From the NCBI RefSeq assembly GCF_014218255.1, contig NZ_AP021872.1:1674001-1738000 (forward strand): a stretch of 64,000 nucleotides of DNA, written 5' to 3'. Positions 133-52,676 of this stretch are shown in pieces. Below the pieces are notes generated by a model. The model did not search any database. It was not told the DNA's origin and was given only the letters and a program-made list of their open reading frames with translations. The stretch comes from Mycoavidus sp. B2-EB (lineage in GTDB: Bacteria; Pseudomonadota; Gammaproteobacteria; Burkholderiales; Burkholderiaceae). The stretch's first letter is position 1; every line of letters starts with the position of its first letter. Both the position numbers and the translations under genes were made by a program.

Positions 133-281
133 TGCATTTAAAACAGATTCTCTCTCTAGGCTTGTTGAGCATTTTATTCGCTTGCTCATCCATTCCCAAA
201 AAGCCTAAGTCCGCCGACGAAAGCAACCGAGTTCGCATCAATCAAACGATCCCAGAAGAAATTAAAAGTGGGATTAAATAA
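132..281 (+). CDS. virB7: Small VirB7-like lipoprotein of the type IV secretion system
   Basis: A 49-residue protein with a short hydrophobic signal ending in a lipobox (LFAC, Cys18) and a polar Ser/Lys-rich mature part. VirB7 proteins are small outer-membrane lipoproteins that stabilise VirB9 in the outer-membrane core complex. The start overlaps the virB6 stop by one base (TAATG). The stop likewise overlaps the virB8 ATG by one base, so translational coupling is likely. Size, lipobox and position support the call; the sequence itself is too short to assign by similarity. Confidence 0.7.
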   Translation: MHLKQILSLGLLSILFACSSIPKKPKSADESNRVRINQTIPEEIKSGIK

Positions 282-973
282 TGGACTACAGACCCATTGA
301 GAGCCAAAAAATCGCGCACTATTTGGCGGAAAGCCGAGGCCTAGAACGCGACTATATTGGCGAAATTTTAAATTCGCGCAAATGGGCCTGGATGATCGCC
401 GGCATCTTTGGCGTACTGGCTTTATTAGGCTTAAGCGCCGGCATCATGGGGATTCAGCGCGAAGTGCCGCCTCCGGTTGTGCTGCGGGTCGACAACGCCA
501 CAGGTGCGGTGGATGGGGTGCAAACCATGGCCGAAAAAGAAGCGACTTACGGTGAAATAACCGATCAATATTGGCTGAATCAATATGTCTTAAATCGTGA
601 AAGTTACGATTACAACACGATTCAAAAATCATACGAAGCAACCGGCTTAATGAGTACACCAGAAGTAGCACACCAATACCAAGCTTTATTTCGCGGCCCC
701 AACGCCCGCGACCAAGTATTAGGCAAATATGCGCGCATTGCTGTCACCGTCCGCTCGATCGTGCCTGATGTTGAGATGGGTATTGGCAGCGTGCGCTTTA
801 CGACACAACAGATTAATTCGAATGGAACAAAAAAAGCCTCGCGCAATTGGATTGCTACCGTGCGCTACCATTATTTACGTAAAGCCGCCATGAAATCTGA
901 AGCACGGCGCATCAACCTGCTGGGTTTTCAAGTCAGCAGCTATCGGATAGACCCAGAAACTCTCGCTGAATAA
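281..973 (+). CDS. virB8: Type IV secretion protein VirB8
   Basis: 230 residues. There is a short cytoplasmic N-terminus, one membrane segment at about 36-58 (WMIAGIFGVLALLGLSAG) and a periplasmic VirB8-like domain. Family features are the stretch around TYGEITDQYWLNQYVLNRESYDY and the C-terminal NPxG-like region with LLGFQVSSYRID. VirB8 is the bitopic inner-membrane assembly factor that contacts VirB9 and VirB10. It sits between virB7 and virB9 as expected, and its start overlaps the virB7 stop. Confidence 0.9.
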   Translation: MDYRPIESQKIAHYLAESRGLERDYIGEILNSRKWAWMIAGIFGVLALLGLSAGIMGIQREVPPPVVLRVDNATGAVDGVQTMAEKEATYGEITDQYWLNQYVLNRESYDYNTIQKSYEATGLMSTPEVAHQYQALFRGPNARDQVLGKYARIAVTVRSIVPDVEMGIGSVRFTTQQINSNGTKKASRNWIATVRYHYLRKAAMKSEARRINLLGFQVSSYRIDPETLAE

Positions 974-979
974 CCTCCC

Positions 980-1813
980 ATGGCGCTCACTCACCTCACC
1001 CTGTTACATAAGGTCTTACGACTGACTTTTTACTTGGCCTTAGCCTTACTGTCAAACCAATCTATATACGCCCTCAGTGCCCCCGAACGCTCCAGTTACG
1101 ATCACCGGATTCGTTACACCAACTACAACCCCGCCGATGTGGTGCAAATTGATAGCGTCATTGGAATTGCCACCCATATCATGCTAGAAGAAGGTGAAAC
1201 CTATCTCACACATGCTTTTGGCGATGCAAGTGCTTGGTCTTTTGTGGCTGAAAAAAACCATATTTTCATTAAACCCAAAGCAGAAAATGCAGATACGAAT
1301 CTGATTCTGATCACCAACCGACGCAGTTATAATTTTCGCCTAAGTTATCAACCTTCACGCTCAGCCGCAGCGGTTTATCAGCTCGTTTTTCGTTATCCAG
1401 ATACCGCTACGCTTAAGCTACAAGCGCAACAAGAAACGTTAGCGCTAGCACAAAGCTTTAAAGTTCCGCCAGGCGGCTATAACTTAGCTTATGAGATGAG
1501 CGGCGATCTGGAAATCGCACCGATCAACGTATGGGATAACGGCCGCTTTACTTATTTTAAATTTCCCGGTAATCGAGATCTTCCAGCGATTTATAAAGTA
1601 GATACGCAAGCCGATGAAAGCATTGTCAATCGCCATATAAAAGGTTCTGCCAACCATCTTATCGTGGTTGAAACCGTCAACCCTAAATGGATCCTCCGAC
1701 TGGGTGAACAAACCCTCGCCATCTATAACGAAGCGTTCAATCCGAGCGGCATTGCCAACCAAACTGGCACCGCCTCCCCGGCTGTGCGGCGGATTATTAA
1801 GGAGCCACGCTAA
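980..1813 (+). CDS. virB9: Type IV secretion protein VirB9
   Basis: 277 residues with an N-terminal signal peptide (about 1-31) and an N-terminal VirB9 domain (DHRIRYTNYNPADVVQID). The C-terminal VirB9 region includes PINVWDNGRFTYFKFPGNRD and the VNPKWILRLG block near the end. VirB9 forms the outer-membrane core ring with VirB7 and VirB10. The gene starts 6 bases after virB8, and its last base is shared with the virB10 ATG (TAATG). All typical VirB9 landmarks are present. Confidence 0.93.
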   Translation: MALTHLTLLHKVLRLTFYLALALLSNQSIYALSAPERSSYDHRIRYTNYNPADVVQIDSVIGIATHIMLEEGETYLTHAFGDASAWSFVAEKNHIFIKPKAENADTNLILITNRRSYNFRLSYQPSRSAAAVYQLVFRYPDTATLKLQAQQETLALAQSFKVPPGGYNLAYEMSGDLEIAPINVWDNGRFTYFKFPGNRDLPAIYKVDTQADESIVNRHIKGSANHLIVVETVNPKWILRLGEQTLAIYNEAFNPSGIANQTGTASPAVRRIIKEPR

Positions 1814-2961
1814 TGTTCAATGCGGTAGATAAAACCAAACAGGATGCACATGCCGTAGAAAGTTTTCAACCCGCACAAATTAGTGGCGAGCGAGGCAGCG
1901 CCGAGTTAGATACCCAACGCCCTCTATCGCTTCCTGGTGCGCGCCTCTTATTCATTATCATTATTATTTGTGCCACCACGATTGGCTTACTCTTCATGCG
2001 CCAAGCCTCGCAGCTACGCAGCCCCCCCTCCAAGCAACCCATGCAACAAACCGTATCGTTGCAAAATCCGTTACCCCCGTTGCAATCAAAAGCGCTTCCA
2101 ACACAAAAGGAAACGCCTCTAGAACCGCCACTGCCTCCTCTTCCGCAGGTTTCGCCTACGCTTGACAATGAATCGCCCTCGGCCCAGCCCCCTCCTCAAA
2201 TGCAACTGCGTGAGCGACGTTTACGCGCGGGCTTAACAGATATGCCCCAACCTGCGCCACCGTCGGACAAACCAGACCAGCTAACCGACCCGGCTCATCT
2301 TAAGACAGGCAACTCAAACGAGTTGTCCAGTAAATTAGAACCCGTAATGCTCAGTCCAGCCACCGCTGGCCGTTTTAGCGATCTCAATTTTCTGCTGACC
2401 CAAGGCACGATTATTAACTGTGTGCTGACCACTAAGATTATTAGTAGTCAGCCAGGCATGACGGTTTGCAACTTAACTCAAGATATCTATTCGGCTAATG
2501 GCCAAGTGGTATTACTTGATCGCGGTTCAAAGGTGGTCGGCTTTTATCAAAGCGGCATCGCCCAAGGACAGGCACGTATTTTTGTACAGTGGTCTCGCGT
2601 GGAAACACCCCAAGGGGTGATCATCAACCTGGCCTCGCCTGGAGCTGGCCCGCTTGGCGAAGCGGGTTTAAGCGGCTGGGTTGATCAGCATTTTGGGGAG
2701 CGCTTCGGCGGCACCATTATGTTGAGTTTAATTGGCGATTTAGGAGAATGGGCGCAGGCCCAAAGCCGGCGTGAAAAAACCAACTCCATTCAGTTCGGCA
2801 ACTCTCTCCAAGGGCTAGAACAAGCCGCCACTGAAGCATTACGCAACTCCATCAATATTGCGCCAACGCTCTACAAAAACCAAGGCGAACGCATTTCAAT
2901 CCTAGTCGCGCGCGATTTAGATTTTAGTAGCGTTTATGGGCTCCAGCACCCTGCACAATGA
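1813..2961 (+). CDS. virB10: Type IV secretion protein VirB10
   Basis: 382 residues. A cytoplasmic N-terminus is followed by one membrane segment at about 43-65 (LLFIIIIICATTIGLLF), a long proline-rich periplasmic linker at about 75-160, and a C-terminal TrbI/VirB10 beta-barrel domain. The barrel is recognisable from QGTIINCVLTTKIISSQPG and AGLSGWVDQHFGERFGGTI. VirB10 spans both membranes and couples ATPase energy to the outer-membrane pore. The ORF overlaps virB9 by one base and virB11 by about 26 bases. Confidence 0.95.
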   Translation: MFNAVDKTKQDAHAVESFQPAQISGERGSAELDTQRPLSLPGARLLFIIIIICATTIGLLFMRQASQLRSPPSKQPMQQTVSLQNPLPPLQSKALPTQKETPLEPPLPPLPQVSPTLDNESPSAQPPPQMQLRERRLRAGLTDMPQPAPPSDKPDQLTDPAHLKTGNSNELSSKLEPVMLSPATAGRFSDLNFLLTQGTIINCVLTTKIISSQPGMTVCNLTQDIYSANGQVVLLDRGSKVVGFYQSGIAQGQARIFVQWSRVETPQGVIINLASPGAGPLGEAGLSGWVDQHFGERFGGTIMLSLIGDLGEWAQAQSRREKTNSIQFGNSLQGLEQAATEALRNSINIAPTLYKNQGERISILVARDLDFSSVYGLQHPAQ

Positions 2962-4054
2962 AGTTATTTCGGCACCTATCGCTTTGCTACAAACGCCCGA
3001 CTTAAACGCCATGCCCCAACCTGCTGCAAAAGACTCAGCGCTTTTGCAGCTATTGCGACCCTTTAAGCGTTTTCTTGACGATCCAACTGTAAGCGAGCTC
3101 GCCATGAACCGCGCGCTTGAAGTGCTAACCCGCACCCGCATAGGCTGGCTTGCACACCCGATGCCAGAGCTTACAGCGAGTTATATGCAAGCCCTGATTA
3201 CCGCAATTGTGGTCTATAACGGCCTGCCTATGAAAAGCCTAATGTATGCGATTTTGCCCGGCGGACAGCGCGTGACGATTGGCTTACCGCCTGCCGTCAT
3301 TGATCATTCATTGATGTTTCTGATCCGCAAACATACCCCTACCGTCAAGACTCTGATTGAACTCGAAGCCGAAGGGACATTCGACCAGGCCATCGATGTG
3401 AGTTTCCATCAACCCAACTCAGCAACTTGCACAGAGCAATTAACCGCGCCTGACTTCAATCGGCTTGAACCGTTTGAAGTAGAGTTGCTAGAACTCAAAC
3501 GCAACAACACAATCCGCAAATTTCTCGAAGTAAGCGTTCAATACCAGCGCAACATTATCATCGCCGGCAAAACGGGCTCAGGGAAAACCACCTTTGCGCG
3601 CTCCCTCATCGAGAAAGTGCCCACTAGCGAACGCATTGCCACGATTGAAGATGTGCATGAGCTGTTTTTGCCTCATCATCCAAATGTCATTGCGTTACTT
3701 TACGGTCAAGGCACAGGACGCGTCTCGGCTGATGAATGTATTGCCGCTTGTATGCGAGCGACTCCAGATCGAATCTTTTTAGCCGAGTTGCGTGGCGATG
3801 AAGCATGGGAATATCTCATGTCGCTTAACACCGGCCACCCAGGCGCAATTACCACGACCCACGCCAACGGCGCACTCCAAACCTTTGAGCGCATTGCAAC
3901 TTTAATTAAAAAATCCCGCGCCGGCCAATCTATTGGCATGGAAATGATCAAGCAAGTCCTTTATACCACGATCGATATTGTGCTTTTTTTAAAAGATCGC
4001 AAGCTCACTGAAATTTTCTACGATCCAATTTTTGCTAAGACGAAAAGGGTTTAA
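2936..4054 (+). CDS. virB11: Type IV secretion ATPase VirB11
   Basis: 372 residues of the secretion ATPase family. The Walker A motif is GKTGSGKTT at about 211-219. An Asp box follows (IATIEDVHELFL), then a Walker B-like RIFLAELRGDEAWEYL and the His box GHPGAITTTHAN near 300-311. VirB11 is the hexameric cytoplasmic ATPase that powers pilus assembly and substrate transfer. The chosen ATG lies inside virB10; an internal Met at about residue 26 is an alternative start. This is the last gene of the operon; no tra, relaxase or coupling-protein gene follows in the window. Confidence 0.95.
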   Translation: MGSSTLHNEVISAPIALLQTPDLNAMPQPAAKDSALLQLLRPFKRFLDDPTVSELAMNRALEVLTRTRIGWLAHPMPELTASYMQALITAIVVYNGLPMKSLMYAILPGGQRVTIGLPPAVIDHSLMFLIRKHTPTVKTLIELEAEGTFDQAIDVSFHQPNSATCTEQLTAPDFNRLEPFEVELLELKRNNTIRKFLEVSVQYQRNIIIAGKTGSGKTTFARSLIEKVPTSERIATIEDVHELFLPHHPNVIALLYGQGTGRVSADECIAACMRATPDRIFLAELRGDEAWEYLMSLNTGHPGAITTTHANGALQTFERIATLIKKSRAGQSIGMEMIKQVLYTTIDIVLFLKDRKLTEIFYDPIFAKTKRV

Positions 4055-4092: not shown

Positions 4093-4183
4093 TAAAAAAA
4101 AGCCCAAACCTAAGTTTGGGCTGAATCCACCAAAGGAGGAGGGTGGAGGAGACACTGTTTGGCTGTCTTCATCAACAACCGAT
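4093..4183 (-). ncRNA. Candidate trans-acting small RNA, three hairpins, anti-Shine-Dalgarno loop
   Basis: No family name is assigned. On - an ideal -10 leads to a predicted start near 4183 and a transcript of about 90 nt. Hairpin 1 is GGTTGT/ACAGCC (4161-4180, 8-nt loop). Hairpin 2 is TCCACC/GGTGGA (4126-4147) and its 10-nt loop reads CTCCTCCTTT, complementary to Shine-Dalgarno sequences. A second unpaired CTCC-type motif (TCTCCTCC) lies just before it. Hairpin 3 is a perfect 9-bp terminator AGCCCAAAC/GTTTGGGCT (4101-4122, TTAG loop) followed by seven T. The layout is that of an Hfq-type regulator acting on ribosome binding sites. Expression and targets are inferred. Confidence 0.72.
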
Positions 4184-4190
4184 GAAAAGG

Positions 4191-4219
4191 ATTATAGCGA
4201 AAACTCTTGTGCAATGCAA
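4191..4219 (-). promoter_or_regulatory. Sigma70-type promoter of the small RNA
   Basis: On the minus strand there is a perfect -10 hexamer TATAAT (4191-4196). Exactly 17 bases upstream lies TTGCAT (4214-4219) as a weak -35. The -10 is 8 bases before the predicted first base of the small RNA. No ORF begins just downstream, so the promoter makes sense only for a non-coding transcript. Confidence 0.6.
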
Positions 4220-4574
4220 TGGAATTTATAATATAAAATTATTTTTTACATTATGAAAAATTAGTGAGGTTCCTACTCATTTTTAAAATACTTATTTTTC
4301 AATAAGTTAGAGTTTTTACTCGAAATTGATAACACTATTTTAGCAAAAATGAGGAAACTATTTGGTTGTTACTTCAGGCAATTTCGCATCAAAATCGATT
4401 TGCTGCGCAGCACAAATAGTTTTGAACAATTGATCCGTGCGGAGGTGCAGGTGACCGCCCGTCACCTGTGCATCGAGCTGTGATGCAAGCGCTTAATTGG
4501 AAAACGTATAGAAGAAAAGAAAGACTGAAAAGGTTTTAACCCCAGCACATAACGGGGCCTAACTATAATGAAAA
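4220..4574. other. AT-rich gap with a possible gene relic
   Basis: No credible intact gene. On - an open stretch ends with TAG at about 4361 and reads back to a stop near 4495 without an ATG. Its translation includes GGHLHLRTDQLFKTICAAQQ and looks protein-like, so it may be the decayed 3' end of a gene. A perfect 8-bp inverted repeat CAGGTGAC/GTCACCTG (4448-4468, loop CGCCC) lies in the same place. Just downstream of rnpB on -, a CCCC/GGGG hairpin near 4541-4558 may be its weak terminator. The left part (4220-4370) is very AT-rich and holds nothing I can name. Confidence 0.4.
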
Positions 4575-4968
<394 letters not shown>

Positions 4969-4995: not shown

Positions 4996-6084
4996 TTAAG
5001 ACAGTCGCCACTCAATGGTTTCACCCGCACCGAGCGGCACCAATATGTGTTCGCCGGCCGCCAACTCAGATGGCAACGCCCATGGCTCGCGCCGCAGCGT
5101 CACGGTTCCCAAATTGCGCTCCAGCCCATAAAACGCAGCGCCATGAGCGCTCGCAAAGCCCTCCAACTGCGCTAACGCACCCGCCCTATCGAAAACCTGC
5201 GCATAGAGTTCAAGCGCATGGAGTGCCGTATAACACCCTGCGCAACCACAATCATGTTCTTTCGCCCCCTTGGGGTGCGGCGCACTATCCGTCCCCAAGA
5301 AAAAGCGGGGGTTACCGGAAGTAGCGGCTTTCACTAACGCCAACCGATGCTGCTCGCGCTTTAAGACTGGTAAGCAATAATAATGTGGCCGCAGTCCTTT
5401 TTGAAAAAGCGCATTGCGGTTATACAATAGATGATGCGCAGTAATCGTTGCCCCCAACCTGCCGGGCGCCGCCTCTGCGTCGCGCACATAGTCAGCCGCC
5501 TCTTGCGTCGTAATATGCTCAAAAACCACCTTTAAAGCGGGAAACGCGCGTCGCACAGGCTCCAGCACTTGATCAATAAAGATTTTTTCACGGTCGAATA
5601 TATCCACCGACGCATCCGTGACTTCGCCATGCACCAGCAGCGGCAACCCCACTTCTTGCATCACTTCTAACGCTTTTGCACAATGCCTAAGATCCGTCAC
5701 ACCCGCATCTGAATGCGTGGTTGCCCCTGCCGGATAAAGCTTAACCGCCTGCACTCTACCTGACTCGTGCGCACGGCGAATCTCATCTGCAGGTGTGTTG
5801 TCAGTCAAATAAAGCGTCATTAACGGCTCAAACTCTGCGCCCTCTGGCAAGGCAGCCATAATGCGTTGGCGATAAGCCAGCGCTTGAGCCGTAGTGGTTA
5901 CGGGCGGCTTCAGATTAGGCATCACAATCGCGCGTCCGAACTGGCGCGCAGTATGCGGCAGCACCGCGGCTAACATCGCGCCATCACGCAGATGCAGATG
6001 CAGATCATCGGGACGCGTAATCGTTAGAGAATCGATTGGTGCGGCTTGGGGTTTAATGTGGGCTTGCTGAAAATGCTTTTCCAT
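4996..6084 (-). CDS. pyrC: Dihydroorotase, class II
   Basis: Cyclises carbamoyl-aspartate to dihydroorotate in pyrimidine synthesis, in the cytoplasm. The metal-binding HLHLRDG motif is near residue 29, and VKLYPAGATTHSDAGV carries the lysine that is carboxylated to bridge the two zinc ions. VFEHITT, a second His-containing strand (ATITAHHLLYNRNA) and FLGTDSAPH follow. The start at 6084 gives 362 residues. In-frame TTG (6153) and ATG (6123) lie upstream, but the 6123 ATG is embedded in a TATAAT (6122-6127, -) that looks like the -10 box, so the downstream ATG is preferred. No clear ribosome binding site decides this. Confidence 0.93.
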   Translation of the reverse strand: MEKHFQQAHIKPQAAPIDSLTITRPDDLHLHLRDGAMLAAVLPHTARQFGRAIVMPNLKPPVTTTAQALAYRQRIMAALPEGAEFEPLMTLYLTDNTPADEIRRAHESGRVQAVKLYPAGATTHSDAGVTDLRHCAKALEVMQEVGLPLLVHGEVTDASVDIFDREKIFIDQVLEPVRRAFPALKVVFEHITTQEAADYVRDAEAAPGRLGATITAHHLLYNRNALFQKGLRPHYYCLPVLKREQHRLALVKAATSGNPRFFLGTDSAPHPKGAKEHDCGCAGCYTALHALELYAQVFDRAGALAQLEGFASAHGAAFYGLERNLGTVTLRREPWALPSELAAGEHILVPLGAGETIEWRLS

Positions 6085-6556
6085 GAATTTGAGCAACTTA
6101 TAAGTCAGTTTTACTGGATTCATTATAAGCTGGTGTTGGCCCTCTTGCGCCAACCAATAATTGAATGAGGCAAAATATACTTCAGCAATCTAAACGCTAT
6201 CAACGCTCAACTCACTCCCAAGCCACCTTATTAAAAAGTAGCTCTTAACACTGATGTAGGAATTGCTGAGCCCATCCGACCAATTTTCGCATCTACTTTA
6301 AACTGACACGGGGGCAAGATCAAATTTGTATAATCCTCTAAGCGGATTAATAAGGCCGCAAGGTCTGTCATGCAAATCAACTATGGTTTGATTAATATTC
6401 CAACGGCGGGTTCGCATAATGAAAAAATGCCGACGGGTCTCGGGTCAAATTCGGCGGCAGATCCGGCAGGTGTTCGTTGGCAAATGCTGCGTTATAGGAG
6501 CCTGTCATTATTTTTTGCGTACGCGGAGGCTACACTCAAAAATTCGGATAGGCTCA
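6085..6556. other. Gap between livF and pyrC with possible remnants
   Basis: No convincing gene. On - an ATG at 6508 opens 38 codons to a stop at 6392; the translation has natural-looking composition (EHLPDLPPNLTRDPSAFFHY) but no ribosome binding site. An overlapping + strand frame from about 6370 is rich in Arg and Cys and looks like a shadow. A TATAAT-like box occurs on + near 6330. Both sides border genes pointing left, so the area may be the remains of a gene lost from the liv-pyrC interval. Confidence 0.35.
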
Positions 6557-37998: not shown

Positions 37999-39594
37999 TT
38001 ATTCAACCACAGGAGGGGTTTCAAAAGTATGAAAAGGAGCTGGGCTAGGAATCGTCCATTCAAGCCCTTGAGCGCCTTCCCAAGGTTTAGCCGGAGCGGG
38101 TGCGCAGCGTTTGCCAAAATACGTCGGCAAAGCAACCCAAAACAAAAAGTACACCTGCATTAAACCAAAACCAAATGCACCAATCGTCGCGAGCTGGTTA
38201 TAGTCAGTAAATTGCGCTGAGTAATCCACCACGCGCCGCGGCATTCCAGATAAGCCCAGAAAGTGCATTGGGAAGAAAGTGATATTAAACGAGATCAAAG
38301 ACCCCCAAAAATGAATCCGGCCCCGGGCCTCGTTATACATATAGCCGGTCCATTTGGGCGCCCAATAATACCAACCTGCATACAGCGAAAATAGCGAGCC
38401 CGCAACCAACACATAATGGAAATGCGCAACCACATAATACGTTCCGTGTGCCGCCACATTCAGCGGCGCCATCGCCAAGATCAAGCCGGAAAAGCCGCCG
38501 ATTGTAAAGACCAGCAAAAAGCCTATGGCGAATAACATTGGCGTCTCGAACGTGAGCGCGCCGCGCCACATCGTCGCAACCCAATTGAATACTTTAACCC
38601 CGGTTGGCACAGCAATCAGCATCGTTGCATACATGAAAAAAAGCTGGCCGCTCACCACCATGCCCGTGACAAACATATGATGCGCCCATACCATGAAAGA
38701 CAAGATAGCAATGGATGCCGTGGCATAAACCATCGAATGATAACCAAACAAGGGCTTGCGCGAGAAAGCCGGAATCACCTGCGAGATCATGCCAAAAGCC
38801 GGCAAAATCATGATGTAAACTTCTGGATGGCCGAAGAACCAAAAAATATGTTGATATAGAACGGGGTCTCCGCCGCCCGCTGCATTAAAAAACGAGGTAC
38901 CAAAATGGCGATCGAAAAGCAGCATCGTCACAGCACCGGCCAACACCGGCATGACGGCAATCAGCAAATAAGCCGTGATCAGCCAAGTCCACGCAAACAT
39001 TGGCATTTTCATCAGCGTCATGCCAGGAGCGCGCATATTCAAAATGGTAACCACAATATTAATAGCGCCCATAATTGAAGAGGCGCCCATAATATGCACC
39101 GCAAAAATAGCCAAATCCATGCCAGGCCCCATTTGCACTGACAGCGGTGCATAGAGTGTCCAGCCTGCGGCCGTAGCGCCCCCTGGCACAAAAAATGATG
39201 CGGTCAAGAGCAACGCAGCTGGGGGCAACAACCAGAAACTAAAGTTATTCATGCGCGCGAATGCCATATCCGATGCCCCAATTTGCAAAGGCAACATCCA
39301 ATTAGCAAACCCCACAAACGCCGGCATGATTGCGCCAAACACCATGACGATGCCGTGCATCGTAGTGAGCTGATTGAAAAATTCAGGGCGCATAATTTGC
39401 AAGCCAGGCTCAAATAGCTCCGCCCGGATCAACAGCGCCAGCACACCACCAGACAAAAACATAATGAACGAAAACAGCAAATACAAAGTACCAATATCTT
39501 TATGGTTTGTCGCGAGTAACCAGCGCCGCCATCCAGATGGACGTTCATGCGTATGATCGTGCTGCGCTACCTGGCCGTGTCCGATCGTGGTCAT
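37999..39594 (-). CDS. ctaD: Cytochrome c oxidase subunit I
   Basis: 531 residues with 12 membrane helices. Holds heme a and the heme a3-CuB centre. HPEVYIMILPAFG carries the His-Tyr cross-link; HHMFVTG has the two CuB histidines; YYVVAHFHYVLVAG supplies the a3 and a ligands; TMHGIVMVFG holds the other heme a His. Proton-channel residues are conserved. Transcribed from coxB through coxC. Copper insertion here would usually need CtaG, not found in the window. Confidence 0.97.
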   Translation of the reverse strand: MTTIGHGQVAQHDHTHERPSGWRRWLLATNHKDIGTLYLLFSFIMFLSGGVLALLIRAELFEPGLQIMRPEFFNQLTTMHGIVMVFGAIMPAFVGFANWMLPLQIGASDMAFARMNNFSFWLLPPAALLLTASFFVPGGATAAGWTLYAPLSVQMGPGMDLAIFAVHIMGASSIMGAINIVVTILNMRAPGMTLMKMPMFAWTWLITAYLLIAVMPVLAGAVTMLLFDRHFGTSFFNAAGGGDPVLYQHIFWFFGHPEVYIMILPAFGMISQVIPAFSRKPLFGYHSMVYATASIAILSFMVWAHHMFVTGMVVSGQLFFMYATMLIAVPTGVKVFNWVATMWRGALTFETPMLFAIGFLLVFTIGGFSGLILAMAPLNVAAHGTYYVVAHFHYVLVAGSLFSLYAGWYYWAPKWTGYMYNEARGRIHFWGSLISFNITFFPMHFLGLSGMPRRVVDYSAQFTDYNQLATIGAFGFGLMQVYFLFWVALPTYFGKRCAPAPAKPWEGAQGLEWTIPSPAPFHTFETPPVVE

Positions 39595-52163: not shown

Positions 52164-52676
52164 GTGCACTTTTTGTCACGCCCTTTATTTCTGGCTGCGC
52201 TCACTACACTGGCGCTCGCTCTCGTAAGTATCAGCGGCCTGGCGCTGTTTCCTAGGCTCGCGCACGCTCAGCTCAGCGCACTCAAACAGCACGGTAAACT
52301 CCCCATCACAACACTCACAATCGGCTTATATTCGGTGCAGGCTGAGGTTGCGAGTCGAGAGGCTGACCGCCAACAAGGTTTAATGCATCGCACAAGCCTT
52401 GGGCCTAATGATGGGATGCTCTTTATCTTTGATGAAAACGCGCAGCATTGCTTCTGGATGAAAAATACCCCGCTCGCTCTCTCGATTGCCTTTATTAATG
52501 AGTCTGGCATCATCACGGATATTACTGAAATGAAGCCAGAAACCACACAAAACCACTGCCCGCAACACGCTGGCCGCTATGCCCTTGAGATGAATCAGGG
52601 ATGGTTTGCCGCAAAAGGAATCAAGCCTGGCATGGCTATGGGTGGCTTGCCATTATGGCAAGAAACTTCTCGCTAA
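52164..52676 (+). CDS. DUF192-family secreted protein
   Basis: 170 residues from the GTG at 52164, which has AAGGAG 7 bases upstream. The longer frame from 52086 begins inside a terminator. A signal peptide (1-36) ends in RLAHA. The DUF192 domain follows: QQGLMHRTSLGPNDGMLFIF, HCFWMKNTPLALSIAFIN and HAGRYALEMNQGWFAAKGI. Family function is unknown; members are periplasmic or extracellular. Confidence 0.9.
   Translation: MHFLSRPLFLAALTTLALALVSISGLALFPRLAHAQLSALKQHGKLPITTLTIGLYSVQAEVASREADRQQGLMHRTSLGPNDGMLFIFDENAQHCFWMKNTPLALSIAFINESGIITDITEMKPETTQNHCPQHAGRYALEMNQGWFAAKGIKPGMAMGGLPLWQETSR

Follow-up and report, generated by a model that had tools for sequence, protein, structure and literature searches.

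A predicted small RNA gene lies downstream of rnpB

Is the interval between rnpB and virB11 in Mycoavidus a stand-alone small RNA (sRNA) gene and, if so, to which known RNAs is it related, what controls it and which mRNAs would it pair with? A preliminary description of the window (the 64,000-nucleotide stretch of Mycoavidus DNA analyzed here) had claimed such a gene, with a TTGCAT-N17-TATAAT promoter, an RNA of about 90 nt with three hairpins, and a 9-bp terminator followed by seven T. The features considered below are, in window coordinates:

4093..4183, minus strand: predicted sRNA transcript of ~91 nt, putative NcS27 orthologue and probably that of S17 as well (sequence; fold z -3.5; ends inferred)
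4094..4154, minus strand: RF02278 core, approximately the expected processed form (Rfam, 72.3 bits; processing inferred from S17/NcS27)
4145..4154, minus strand: Site 1, UGUCUCCUCC, a mostly single-stranded 5' seed with its last three bases inside the hairpin 2 stem
4161..4180, minus strand: hairpin 1, the 5' leader (both-side changes in four of seven pairs)
4126..4147, minus strand: hairpin 2, stem UCCACC/GGUGGA (fold, pair changes)
4132..4141, minus strand: loop CUCCUCCUUU, Site 2 (fold; conservation below that of Site 1)
4094..4122, minus strand: intrinsic terminator, 9-bp stem 4122-4101 plus seven T (fold, terminator scan)
4191..4196, minus strand: -10 box TATAAT (sequence)
4207..4219, minus strand: TTGCATTGCACAA, an element overlapping the -35 and common to many RF02278 promoters, whose core fits PhaR operators (sole window match of TTGCRNYGCACMA)
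4226..4266, minus strand: AT-rich, partly palindromic block, a possible second operator (95% identical within the genus)
4574..4966, minus strand: rnpB (RNase P RNA, class A), syntenic neighbor (RF00010, 305.6 bits)
4996..6153, minus strand: pyrC, dihydroorotase, syntenic neighbor (TIGR00856, 454.7 bits)
2936..4054, plus strand: virB11 (T4SS ATPase), converging on the sRNA (TIGR02788, 279.7 bits)

The promoter reads on the minus strand as TTGCAT (4219-4214), a 17-nt spacer and TATAAT (4196-4191); its -10 box is perfect, its -35 agrees with TTGACA in three of six positions, and it is absent from the output of a consensus promoter scan of the window. Transcription is predicted to start near A4183, which would yield a 91-nt RNA extending to 4093. 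Folding of this RNA gives three hairpins with an energy of -31.7 kcal/mol, compared to -20.05 ± 3.33 kcal/mol in 200 shuffled sequences (z = -3.5; none of the 200 equaled it). In this fold, UCUCCUCC reaches the hairpin 2 stem and enters it, CUCCUCCUUU forms the loop, and the terminator consists of nine pairs followed by seven T. As the terminator scan found one terminator, compared to 1.2 in shuffles, the terminator by itself is weak proof. The predicted promoter, RNA and terminator thus agree with the preliminary description, and a stand-alone sRNA gene is supported by the sequence.

The RNA belongs to the RF02278 family

The preliminary description had left open whether this RNA is a homologue of the CU-rich sRNAs of Burkholderiales. 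A cmscan search of the whole window against Rfam 15 gave two above-threshold matches, rnpB and RF02278 (Betaproteobacteria toxic sRNA), the latter at 4154-4094 on the minus strand (72.3 bits, gathering score 50, E = 1.2e-12 for the whole window, model positions 1-64). The window RNA has the double hairpin, the CU-rich single-stranded 5' end and the terminator that characterize this family, so the answer is yes, and several of its orthologues have been studied. Lower-scoring assignments were rejected: NmsRb (RF02877; 39 bits, gathering score 52), anti-hemB (RF02837; 29.4 bits, gathering score 49.5) and SorY (32.3 bits, below its gathering score). Cuckoo RNAs (CcsR, NfeR1 and kin) are proteobacterial sRNAs with CU-rich loops, defined by CUCCUCCC in those loops; this assignment was likewise rejected, as the window RNA has only CUCCUCCA and CUCCUCCU. 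We conclude that the feature is real, functional-looking and of a known kind.

Mycoavidus are endosymbionts of Mortierella-type fungi, and the source genome (1,876,900 bases in one contig) contains one RF02278 copy. The two sister genomes (G018 and G039) have one match each, and rnpB adjoins the sRNA in all three. Among 200 sampled genomes of the same taxonomic family, 187 have an RF02278 match at E <= 0.001 (182 above the cut-off), compared to 0 of 14 control genomes; matches with E up to 0.1 were disregarded because 6 of the 14 control genomes then gave matches. Genomes of this family of 4 Mb or more have at least 2-9 matches each, the counts being lower bounds from 24 candidates scored per genome, and of the 13 family genomes that lack a match at E <= 0.001, 9 are no larger than 1.2 Mb. 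The sRNA pattern was also matched on a contig labeled as an Oscillospiraceae MAG (JAFTTH010000010.1; L145), perhaps through a binning error.

Both hairpins show compensating changes

According to the preliminary description, a functional RNA should show compensating base changes in hairpins 1 and 2 among relatives, and such changes are present in both. We used two alignments: A1, comprising 22 of 27 orthologues tried (L132, L118, L107, L123 and L063 were omitted for long or missing leaders), in which all 22 rows were kept before the count and identical rows were then merged to leave 19 distinct ones; and A2, comprising 27 hand-chosen members. In hairpin 1, four of the seven pairs changed on both sides among the A1 orthologues, some rows being misaligned there, and the clearest contrast is that between the window (GGUUGUU/GACAGCC) and G039 (GGUUACC/GGUAACC). 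When folded singly, all 22 leaders form a hairpin (-7.2 to -14.7 kcal/mol). The covariation score of the whole structure was 0.113 compared to 0.071 ± 0.008 in shuffles (0 of 500 as high), a difference that relatedness alone can inflate. RNAalifold reported 8 pairs and no covariation on A1, a null result that we attribute to misplacement of hairpin 1 by MAFFT in some rows and to insertions in the terminator; for this reason, pairs were counted on the structure of the window RNA and rows were folded singly. Misalignment and insertions also lowered the paired fraction of the A1 terminator helix, which was 62% of cells.

Hairpin 2 showed no compensating change among the 22 A1 orthologues, in which its 5' arm was fixed by the search pattern. 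Across the 27 members of A2, pair 5 is CG in 16 and UA in 11, and pair 6 is CG in 15, GU in 9, AU in 1 and unpaired in 2, with the outer four pairs near-invariant and three of those four inside Site 1. Site 1 itself is invariant in A1, where the search pattern fixed it, and is conserved in most of the 27 A2 members (L161, L169 and L171 differ). The core, the promoter element and the terminator are intact in all three Mycoavidus species. In the best-scoring paralogues (L002-L031), UGUCUCCUCC occurs twice, once free and once in a loop (UGUCUCCUCCAUGUCUCCUCCUGAUAUGGA).

Synteny points to the NcS27 and S17 locus

Named relatives were obtained by a pattern scan of genome contigs (at least 120 loci); OsmC was identified by PF02566 and NF008009, and rnpB was sought near the loci by blastn with the window rnpB, which gives a lower bound. 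Among the matches listed, a divergent osmC lies within 1.7 kb upstream in 75 of the 88 loci with enough flank, coq7 lies upstream in 51 of 88 and rnpB in at least 21 of 88; 79 of 88 have osmC, coq7 or rnpB upstream and 9 have none of them. On the other side, rplM is found within 1.3 kb downstream in 52 and missing in 49 of the 101 listed loci whose downstream sequence is long enough, and 7 of the 70 listed loci with both flanks lack all four genes. The order pyrC, rnpB, osmC (divergent), sRNA, rplM, rpsI is typical of Burkholderia, Paraburkholderia, Pandoraea, Cupriavidus and Ralstonia loci; coq7, osmC, sRNA, rplM, rpsI is typical of Rhodocyclales and Herbaspirillum loci; and osmC, coq7, sRNA is typical of Bordetella and Achromobacter loci.

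The window retains rnpB from the 5' arrangement of rnpB (or coq7) and osmC; osmC has been lost, with no osmC remnant between the sRNA and rnpB. On the 3' side, where many relatives have rplM-rpsI, the window has virB11, the last gene of a VirB8-VirB11 run (281-4054, plus strand) that converges on the sRNA; virB11 was found in 0 of the 120 named loci among the matches listed. Because rplM accompanies just 52 of 101 listed loci, the rplM-rpsI side does not define membership. We regard an OsmC-like match inside virB11 (E = 0.03, 24% identity) as coincidental. In G039 (L152), a virB11-like 3' end adjoins the sRNA; tblastn found neither virB11 nor pyrC within 1.5 kb on either side of the sRNA in that genome. 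Among 15 small-genome copies above the cut-off (L154-L168, drawn from 32 genomes picked by hand), rplM is present in 13, of which 12 have osmC as well, so the copy retained in small genomes is mostly this same locus.

In Burkholderia cenocepacia, the 92-nt NcS27 is flanked by BCAL3348a and BCAL3349, both of which are encoded on the other strand, and the published coordinates give BCAL3349 140 codons plus a stop from its corrected start (PMC4603805). The OsmC beside the sRNA in B. aenigmatica (L061) has the same length as BCAL3349, and the L061 locus has the same layout. S17 of Bordetella pertussis adjoins coq7 (PMC11722255), and coq7 stands beside the sRNA in Bordetella, Achromobacter and Herbaspirillum loci. 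By synteny, the window locus would be the NcS27 locus and, we infer, the S17 locus as well; the osmC and coq7 neighbors of NcS27, S17 and related loci suggest one ancestral locus, so that S17 and NcS27 would be the same gene in two genera. The S17 preprint compares S17 with a "bdhR1" of RF02278 and names NcS27 only among its references (PMC11722255). Since bdhR1 may or may not be NcS27, the link between S17 and NcS27 may be partly in print.

The position next to rnpB, which the preliminary description had named, stands as adjacency. A coupling to RNase P does not: coq7 takes the place of rnpB in other genera, so the adjacency is shared synteny, and we rejected an rnpB-linked function. It is extremely improbable that the feature lacks independence as a gene and represents read-through from rnpB, as its terminator or a 3' fragment. 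The sRNA is on the rnpB strand, ~390 nt downstream of rnpB, as such a reading would have it, but its orthologues retain the promoter, the sRNA remains where coq7 substitutes for rnpB, and NcS27 has its own mapped start (PMC5688073, PMC4603805).

Site 1 is the likely seed and its target motif is scarce in Mycoavidus

The preliminary description had recognized that the CU-rich stretches are complementary to ribosome binding sites, and this anti-Shine-Dalgarno potential is supported by our analysis. It had also spoken of an anti-Shine-Dalgarno loop; the loop is probably not the main seed. In three small-genome relatives (L165-L167), the loop lacks CUCC (CCCAAACAU[A/C]GG) and the 5' UGUCUCCUCC is kept; these loci and L171, all from small genomes of genus g13, have AAACAU in place of the CU-rich loop, with Site 1 kept apart from one change in L171. 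S17 represses BP2158 via Site 1: changes in Site 1 disrupt repression, and compensating mutations restore it (PMC11722255). On these two grounds, the main seed is likely the free 5' UGUCUCCUCC rather than the loop, and it would pair with GGAGACA ribosome sites. An Hfq gene is present in the Mycoavidus genome (104 bits).

We counted GGAGACA 3-10 nt before ATG, using one permuted pattern (GGAGCAA) and a reversed pattern as controls. The three Mycoavidus genomes contain 9 (source genome), 13 and 18 such sites, compared to 34-284 in 14 hand-chosen other family genomes, the numbers being striking in larger Burkholderiaceae genomes ("larger-genome" refers to the observed size of these 14). In the source genome, 35 GGAGCAA sites stand against the 9 GGAGACA sites. 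As a share of all GGAG...ATG, GGAGACA makes up 0.7-1.3% in Mycoavidus compared to 1.5-4.5% in the 14 genomes, and GGAGCAA makes up 3.1-3.3% compared to 1.1-2.6%. The pooled GGAGACA:GGAGCAA counts are 40:139 in Mycoavidus and 1862:897 in the 14 genomes (Fisher p = 6e-33, sites treated as independent). Per genome, the ratio is 0.22-0.39 in Mycoavidus (n = 3) and 0.57-3.92 in the 14 family genomes (median 2.01), with a median of 1.36 for the order (6 other genomes) and of 0.64 for the class (43 genomes); Mycoavidus is at or below the class genomes (p = 0.04) and the 14 family genomes are above them (p = 8e-7). As some of the ~150 remaining genomes of the sample, from the same phylum and outside these ratios, are equally high (53 vs 12 in G365 and 63 vs 28 in G227), enrichment is no proof of selection by the sRNA and may have other causes. 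A small-genome family member, G012, has 14 GGAGACA and 36 GGAGCAA sites.

Of the nine sites in the source genome, one opens iscX, seven precede frames no longer than 40 codons, and one opens a 153-aa frame that by eye looks internal to methionine aminopeptidase. The suggestion that this RNA could regulate many mRNAs is thus doubtful in the source genome, where one of nine sites is at an identified gene. The iscX start carries GGAGACA in both the source genome and G039 (TIGR03412; duplexes of -11.9 and -12.1 kcal/mol), and GGAGACA is also found at the start of a c-type cytochrome in G018 and G039, whose family scores do not reach the cut-off. For 55 ORFs of the window (at least 150 aa, overlaps kept, start taken as the first ATG, accessibility ignored), the two best Site 1 duplexes are at LivF-like (-12.3 kcal/mol) and LivH-like (-11.5 kcal/mol) genes of branched-chain amino-acid transport, whose NCBIfam scores are below the equivalog cut-offs; we treat this possible pairing as a lead only. 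As GGAGACA is common in larger-genome relatives and rare in Mycoavidus, the target set seems to have eroded.

Taken together, these data make it very probable that the window carries the single Mycoavidus copy of an ancestral betaproteobacterial trans-acting sRNA (RF02278; the NcS27 locus and, by synteny, the S17 locus) whose target set seems to have shrunk. Weighing against this explanation are the scarcity of the Site 1 motif, the modest effect of S17S on growth in E. coli despite the family name (PMC11722255), the 9 of 88 listed loci without osmC, coq7 or rnpB, and the 49 of 101 without rplM downstream. By analogy with its relatives, a sigma-70-type promoter would produce the 91-nt RNA with its 5' hairpin, and RNase E would remove that hairpin to leave a stable core of ~61 nt. 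A cut in S17, probably made by RNase E, yields a stable 67-nt form, and S17 levels are Hfq-dependent (PMC11722255), and NcS27 can be processed as well (PMC5688073); the S17 cut falls within GU/GU, and GUGU is also present at the expected cleavage point of the window sRNA. The free 5' UGUCUCCUCC, aided by the CUCCUCC loop and Hfq, would then pair with GGAGACA ribosome sites and block translation; in relatives, the genes so blocked would mainly be those for nutrient uptake and catabolism. S17 has 70 candidate targets with matching sites, and the candidates include 32 transporter-related genes or operons (PMC11722255). NcS27 affects amino-acid and sugar genes and their use (reviewed in PMC10987360), its overexpression slows and its silencing speeds growth (PMC5688073), and a transposon study counts ncS03 and ncS27 in its set of 14 core detrimental fitness genes (PMC12013268).

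The same scarcity of target sites could mean that the sRNA is a relic, perhaps still made, that has lost its targets and is disappearing as it has in more reduced relatives. Consistent with this, the target motif is at or below background in Mycoavidus, 9 of the 13 family genomes without an RF02278 match (E <= 0.001) are 1.2 Mb or smaller, and in the window osmC is gone and the rplM side replaced. We nevertheless consider a relic unlikely, as the core, promoter element and terminator are undamaged in three Mycoavidus species, hairpin 1 is maintained through compensating changes despite its differing sequence, and Mycoavidus species share 95% identity in the block that precedes the promoter.

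Still less probable, in our judgment, is a general translation damper, in which the CU-rich stretches mask many Shine-Dalgarno sites unspecifically, hence the name "toxic sRNA". Growth inhibition has been reported in E. coli and B. cenocepacia (PMC5688073, PMC11722255), and in the source genome GGAGGAG...ATG occurs 17 times compared to 3 for the reversed pattern; the sister genomes differ in this respect (25 vs 26 and 11 vs 7). Against such a damper, S17S is barely toxic in E. coli BL21 despite the family name (PMC11722255), the conserved UGUC of Site 1 reaches beyond the anti-Shine-Dalgarno part, and GGAGACA is over-used relative to GGAGCAA in larger-genome relatives.

A promoter element with a possible PhaR operator

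The pattern TTGCRNYGCACMA has one match in the window (0.29 expected), over the sRNA promoter. Among the matches listed, it occurs 49 times in 29,386 bases upstream of the sRNAs (48 of 120 loci), whereas the other 889,389 bases of these loci contain none, an upstream count that is not independent because the pattern was derived from these same promoters. The looser TGCRNYGCA has 115 upstream and 154 other matches, and TGCNNNGCA has 129 and 625, among the matches listed. Three out-of-place matches beyond the named loci are at weak-hit loci (L172, L175 and L180), and the window also contains TGCATCGCACAA inside an ORF at 52384 and another match at 39095.

For the 114 listed loci that remain after removing 6 of 120 with too little upstream sequence, TTGC-N3-GCA is found within 250 nt upstream in 72, compared to 4.4 expected from shuffles, and on the opposite strand in 12; it is present in 26 of 30 ATG-type paralogues (0.8 expected) and in all 3 Mycoavidus loci. 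TGC-N3-GCA occurs in 94 of these 114 listed loci, compared to 1-9 of 114 for seven permuted or respaced controls. Across 90 aligned sites, conservation exceeds the -35 and is palindromic, with T at -3 (0.93), A at +11 (0.98) and R/Y flanking the center. The adjacent block at 4226-4266 is 48% identical to 19 other Burkholderiaceae loci, compared to 31 ± 4% in shuffles. In several Paraburkholderia loci this block is ATTTCGCAATGCAAAT, whose complementary strand contains TGC-ATT-GCG, so the block may be a second operator that has degenerated.

Which regulator might read this element? The footprint-confirmed operator of the Herbaspirillum seropedicae PhaR protein PhbF is TG[N]TGC[N]3GCAA (PMC3206438), and Sinorhizobium meliloti PhaR, whose sites (for example TTTTATTGCATTGCACACTGA) have the core YGCRNYGCR, has the promoter of the mmgR sRNA among its binding targets (PMC12542648). 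The window has this core (YGCRNYGCR / TGC-N3-GCA) as TGCATTGCA at 4218-4210. In the surrounding TTCCATTGCATTGCACAAGAG (CAT-TGC-ATT-GCA-CAAGAG), the core fits fully and the arms partially: the H. seropedicae flanks are absent, and the arms of the S. meliloti consensus have 8 constrained positions, of which 4 fit by eye. In glucose medium, the B. cenocepacia family members ncS03, ncS05 and ncS27 rise 8.0-, 6.9- and 4.3-fold (PMC5688073), as predicted if a PHB-sensing repressor were relieved; ncS06, ncS25 and ncS35, which are outside the family, also rise 3.6-, 2.1- and 3.5-fold (PMC5688073).

On this basis, we tentatively propose that RF02278 sRNAs across Betaproteobacteria may belong to the PhaR regulon, as a brake on uptake set by the carbon store, of which Mycoavidus would keep the control arm with its targets nearly gone. 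Nascent polyhydroxybutyrate would pull PhaR from the TGC-N3-GCA operator over the -35, RF02278 sRNAs would rise, and carbon and amino-acid uptake would shut down; in Mycoavidus, the last sRNA copy would remain under PhaR control while the ribosome-site signature of its targets has almost vanished. This proposal, which we rate as slightly less likely than not, is weakened by the partial fit of the operator flanks and by the glucose response of ncS27, whose close relatives lack the element at this locus. The element is absent from the sRNA promoter in 6 of 22 Burkholderiaceae orthologues (L061, L127, L040, L054, L132 and L118).

Whether TTGCRNYGCACMA marks a mere unusual -35 or another regulator's site, and no PhaR operator, is in our estimate evenly balanced. 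The element does overlap the -35, and the literal H. seropedicae form is rare, TGNTGCN3GCA being found in 23 and TTGCN3GCAA in 5 of 114 listed loci and neither in Mycoavidus. One of the six orthologues without TGC-N3-GCA is L061, from the NcS27 group, although ncS27 itself increases 4.3-fold in glucose, and three sRNAs from outside the family increase there too (PMC5688073). The PhaR sites of R. eutropha and P. denitrificans are described as unrelated (PMC3206438). In favor of a PhaR operator, conservation of the element is palindromic and extends beyond the hexamer, its core fits S. meliloti YGCRNYGCR (PMC12542648), and it fits the TGC/GCA triplets of H. seropedicae and R. sphaeroides (PMC3206438).

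Sass 2017 noted that three of the four homologues have an upstream motif in common and described the controller of these sRNAs as yet unknown, and the S17 preprint postulates an unnamed repressor (PMC11722255). PhaR, PHB and phasin are absent from the main texts of PMC5688073, PMC11722255 and PMC10987360, and PHB appears in PMC7011215 only in a reference. From these texts and from literature searches on PhaR alone, the link between PhaR and these sRNAs is likely new in print.

Implications

Because membership in RF02278 is well founded, the locus can be named at once. The toxic sRNA, NcS27 and S17 appear to be names of one ancestral locus, and results from Bordetella and Burkholderia can accordingly be pooled. 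The sRNA itself is already known from relatives; the PhaR reading is the new, testable part, and the shared promoter element is a concrete candidate answer to what controls RF02278 sRNAs. If PhaR is the regulator, carbon storage would be wired to translational control of uptake across a bacterial class. The endosymbiont also provides a natural example in which an sRNA is conserved while its regulon has apparently become smaller.

Comparison with known systems

NcS27 of B. cenocepacia J2315 (RF02278) resembles the window RNA in family score, double hairpin with 5' leader, length (~92 nt), genomic place (the osmC side) and CU-rich sites. B. cenocepacia has four family copies, whereas Mycoavidus has one, with rearranged flanks and a rare target motif. 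The TTGC...GCACAA element is retained in Mycoavidus and missing from the Burkholderia loci L061 (B. aenigmatica), L127 and L040. S17/S17S is alike in its CU-rich Sites 1 and 2, its TTGCAT -35 with 17-nt spacer and its terminator, and its synteny on the coq7 side recurs in related loci. It differs in that S17L is 190 nt long with a putative 32-residue ORF, compared to 91 nt in Mycoavidus, and the link of S17 to Bvg mode is irrelevant here.

More distant sRNAs share single traits. Cuckoo RNAs are likewise sRNAs with CU-rich loops, and differ by the exact CUCCUCCC that the window RNA lacks. NmsRA and NmsRB of Neisseria also have two anti-Shine-Dalgarno stretches and metabolic targets, with weak similarity (39 bits), but they are tandem siblings under the stringent response (PMC5362039). 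MmgR of S. meliloti, likened here by description, has a TGC-N3-GCA PhaR site in its promoter that is bound by PhaR (PMC12542648); it is outside RF02278 by name, and it fine-tunes phasin expression and PHB.
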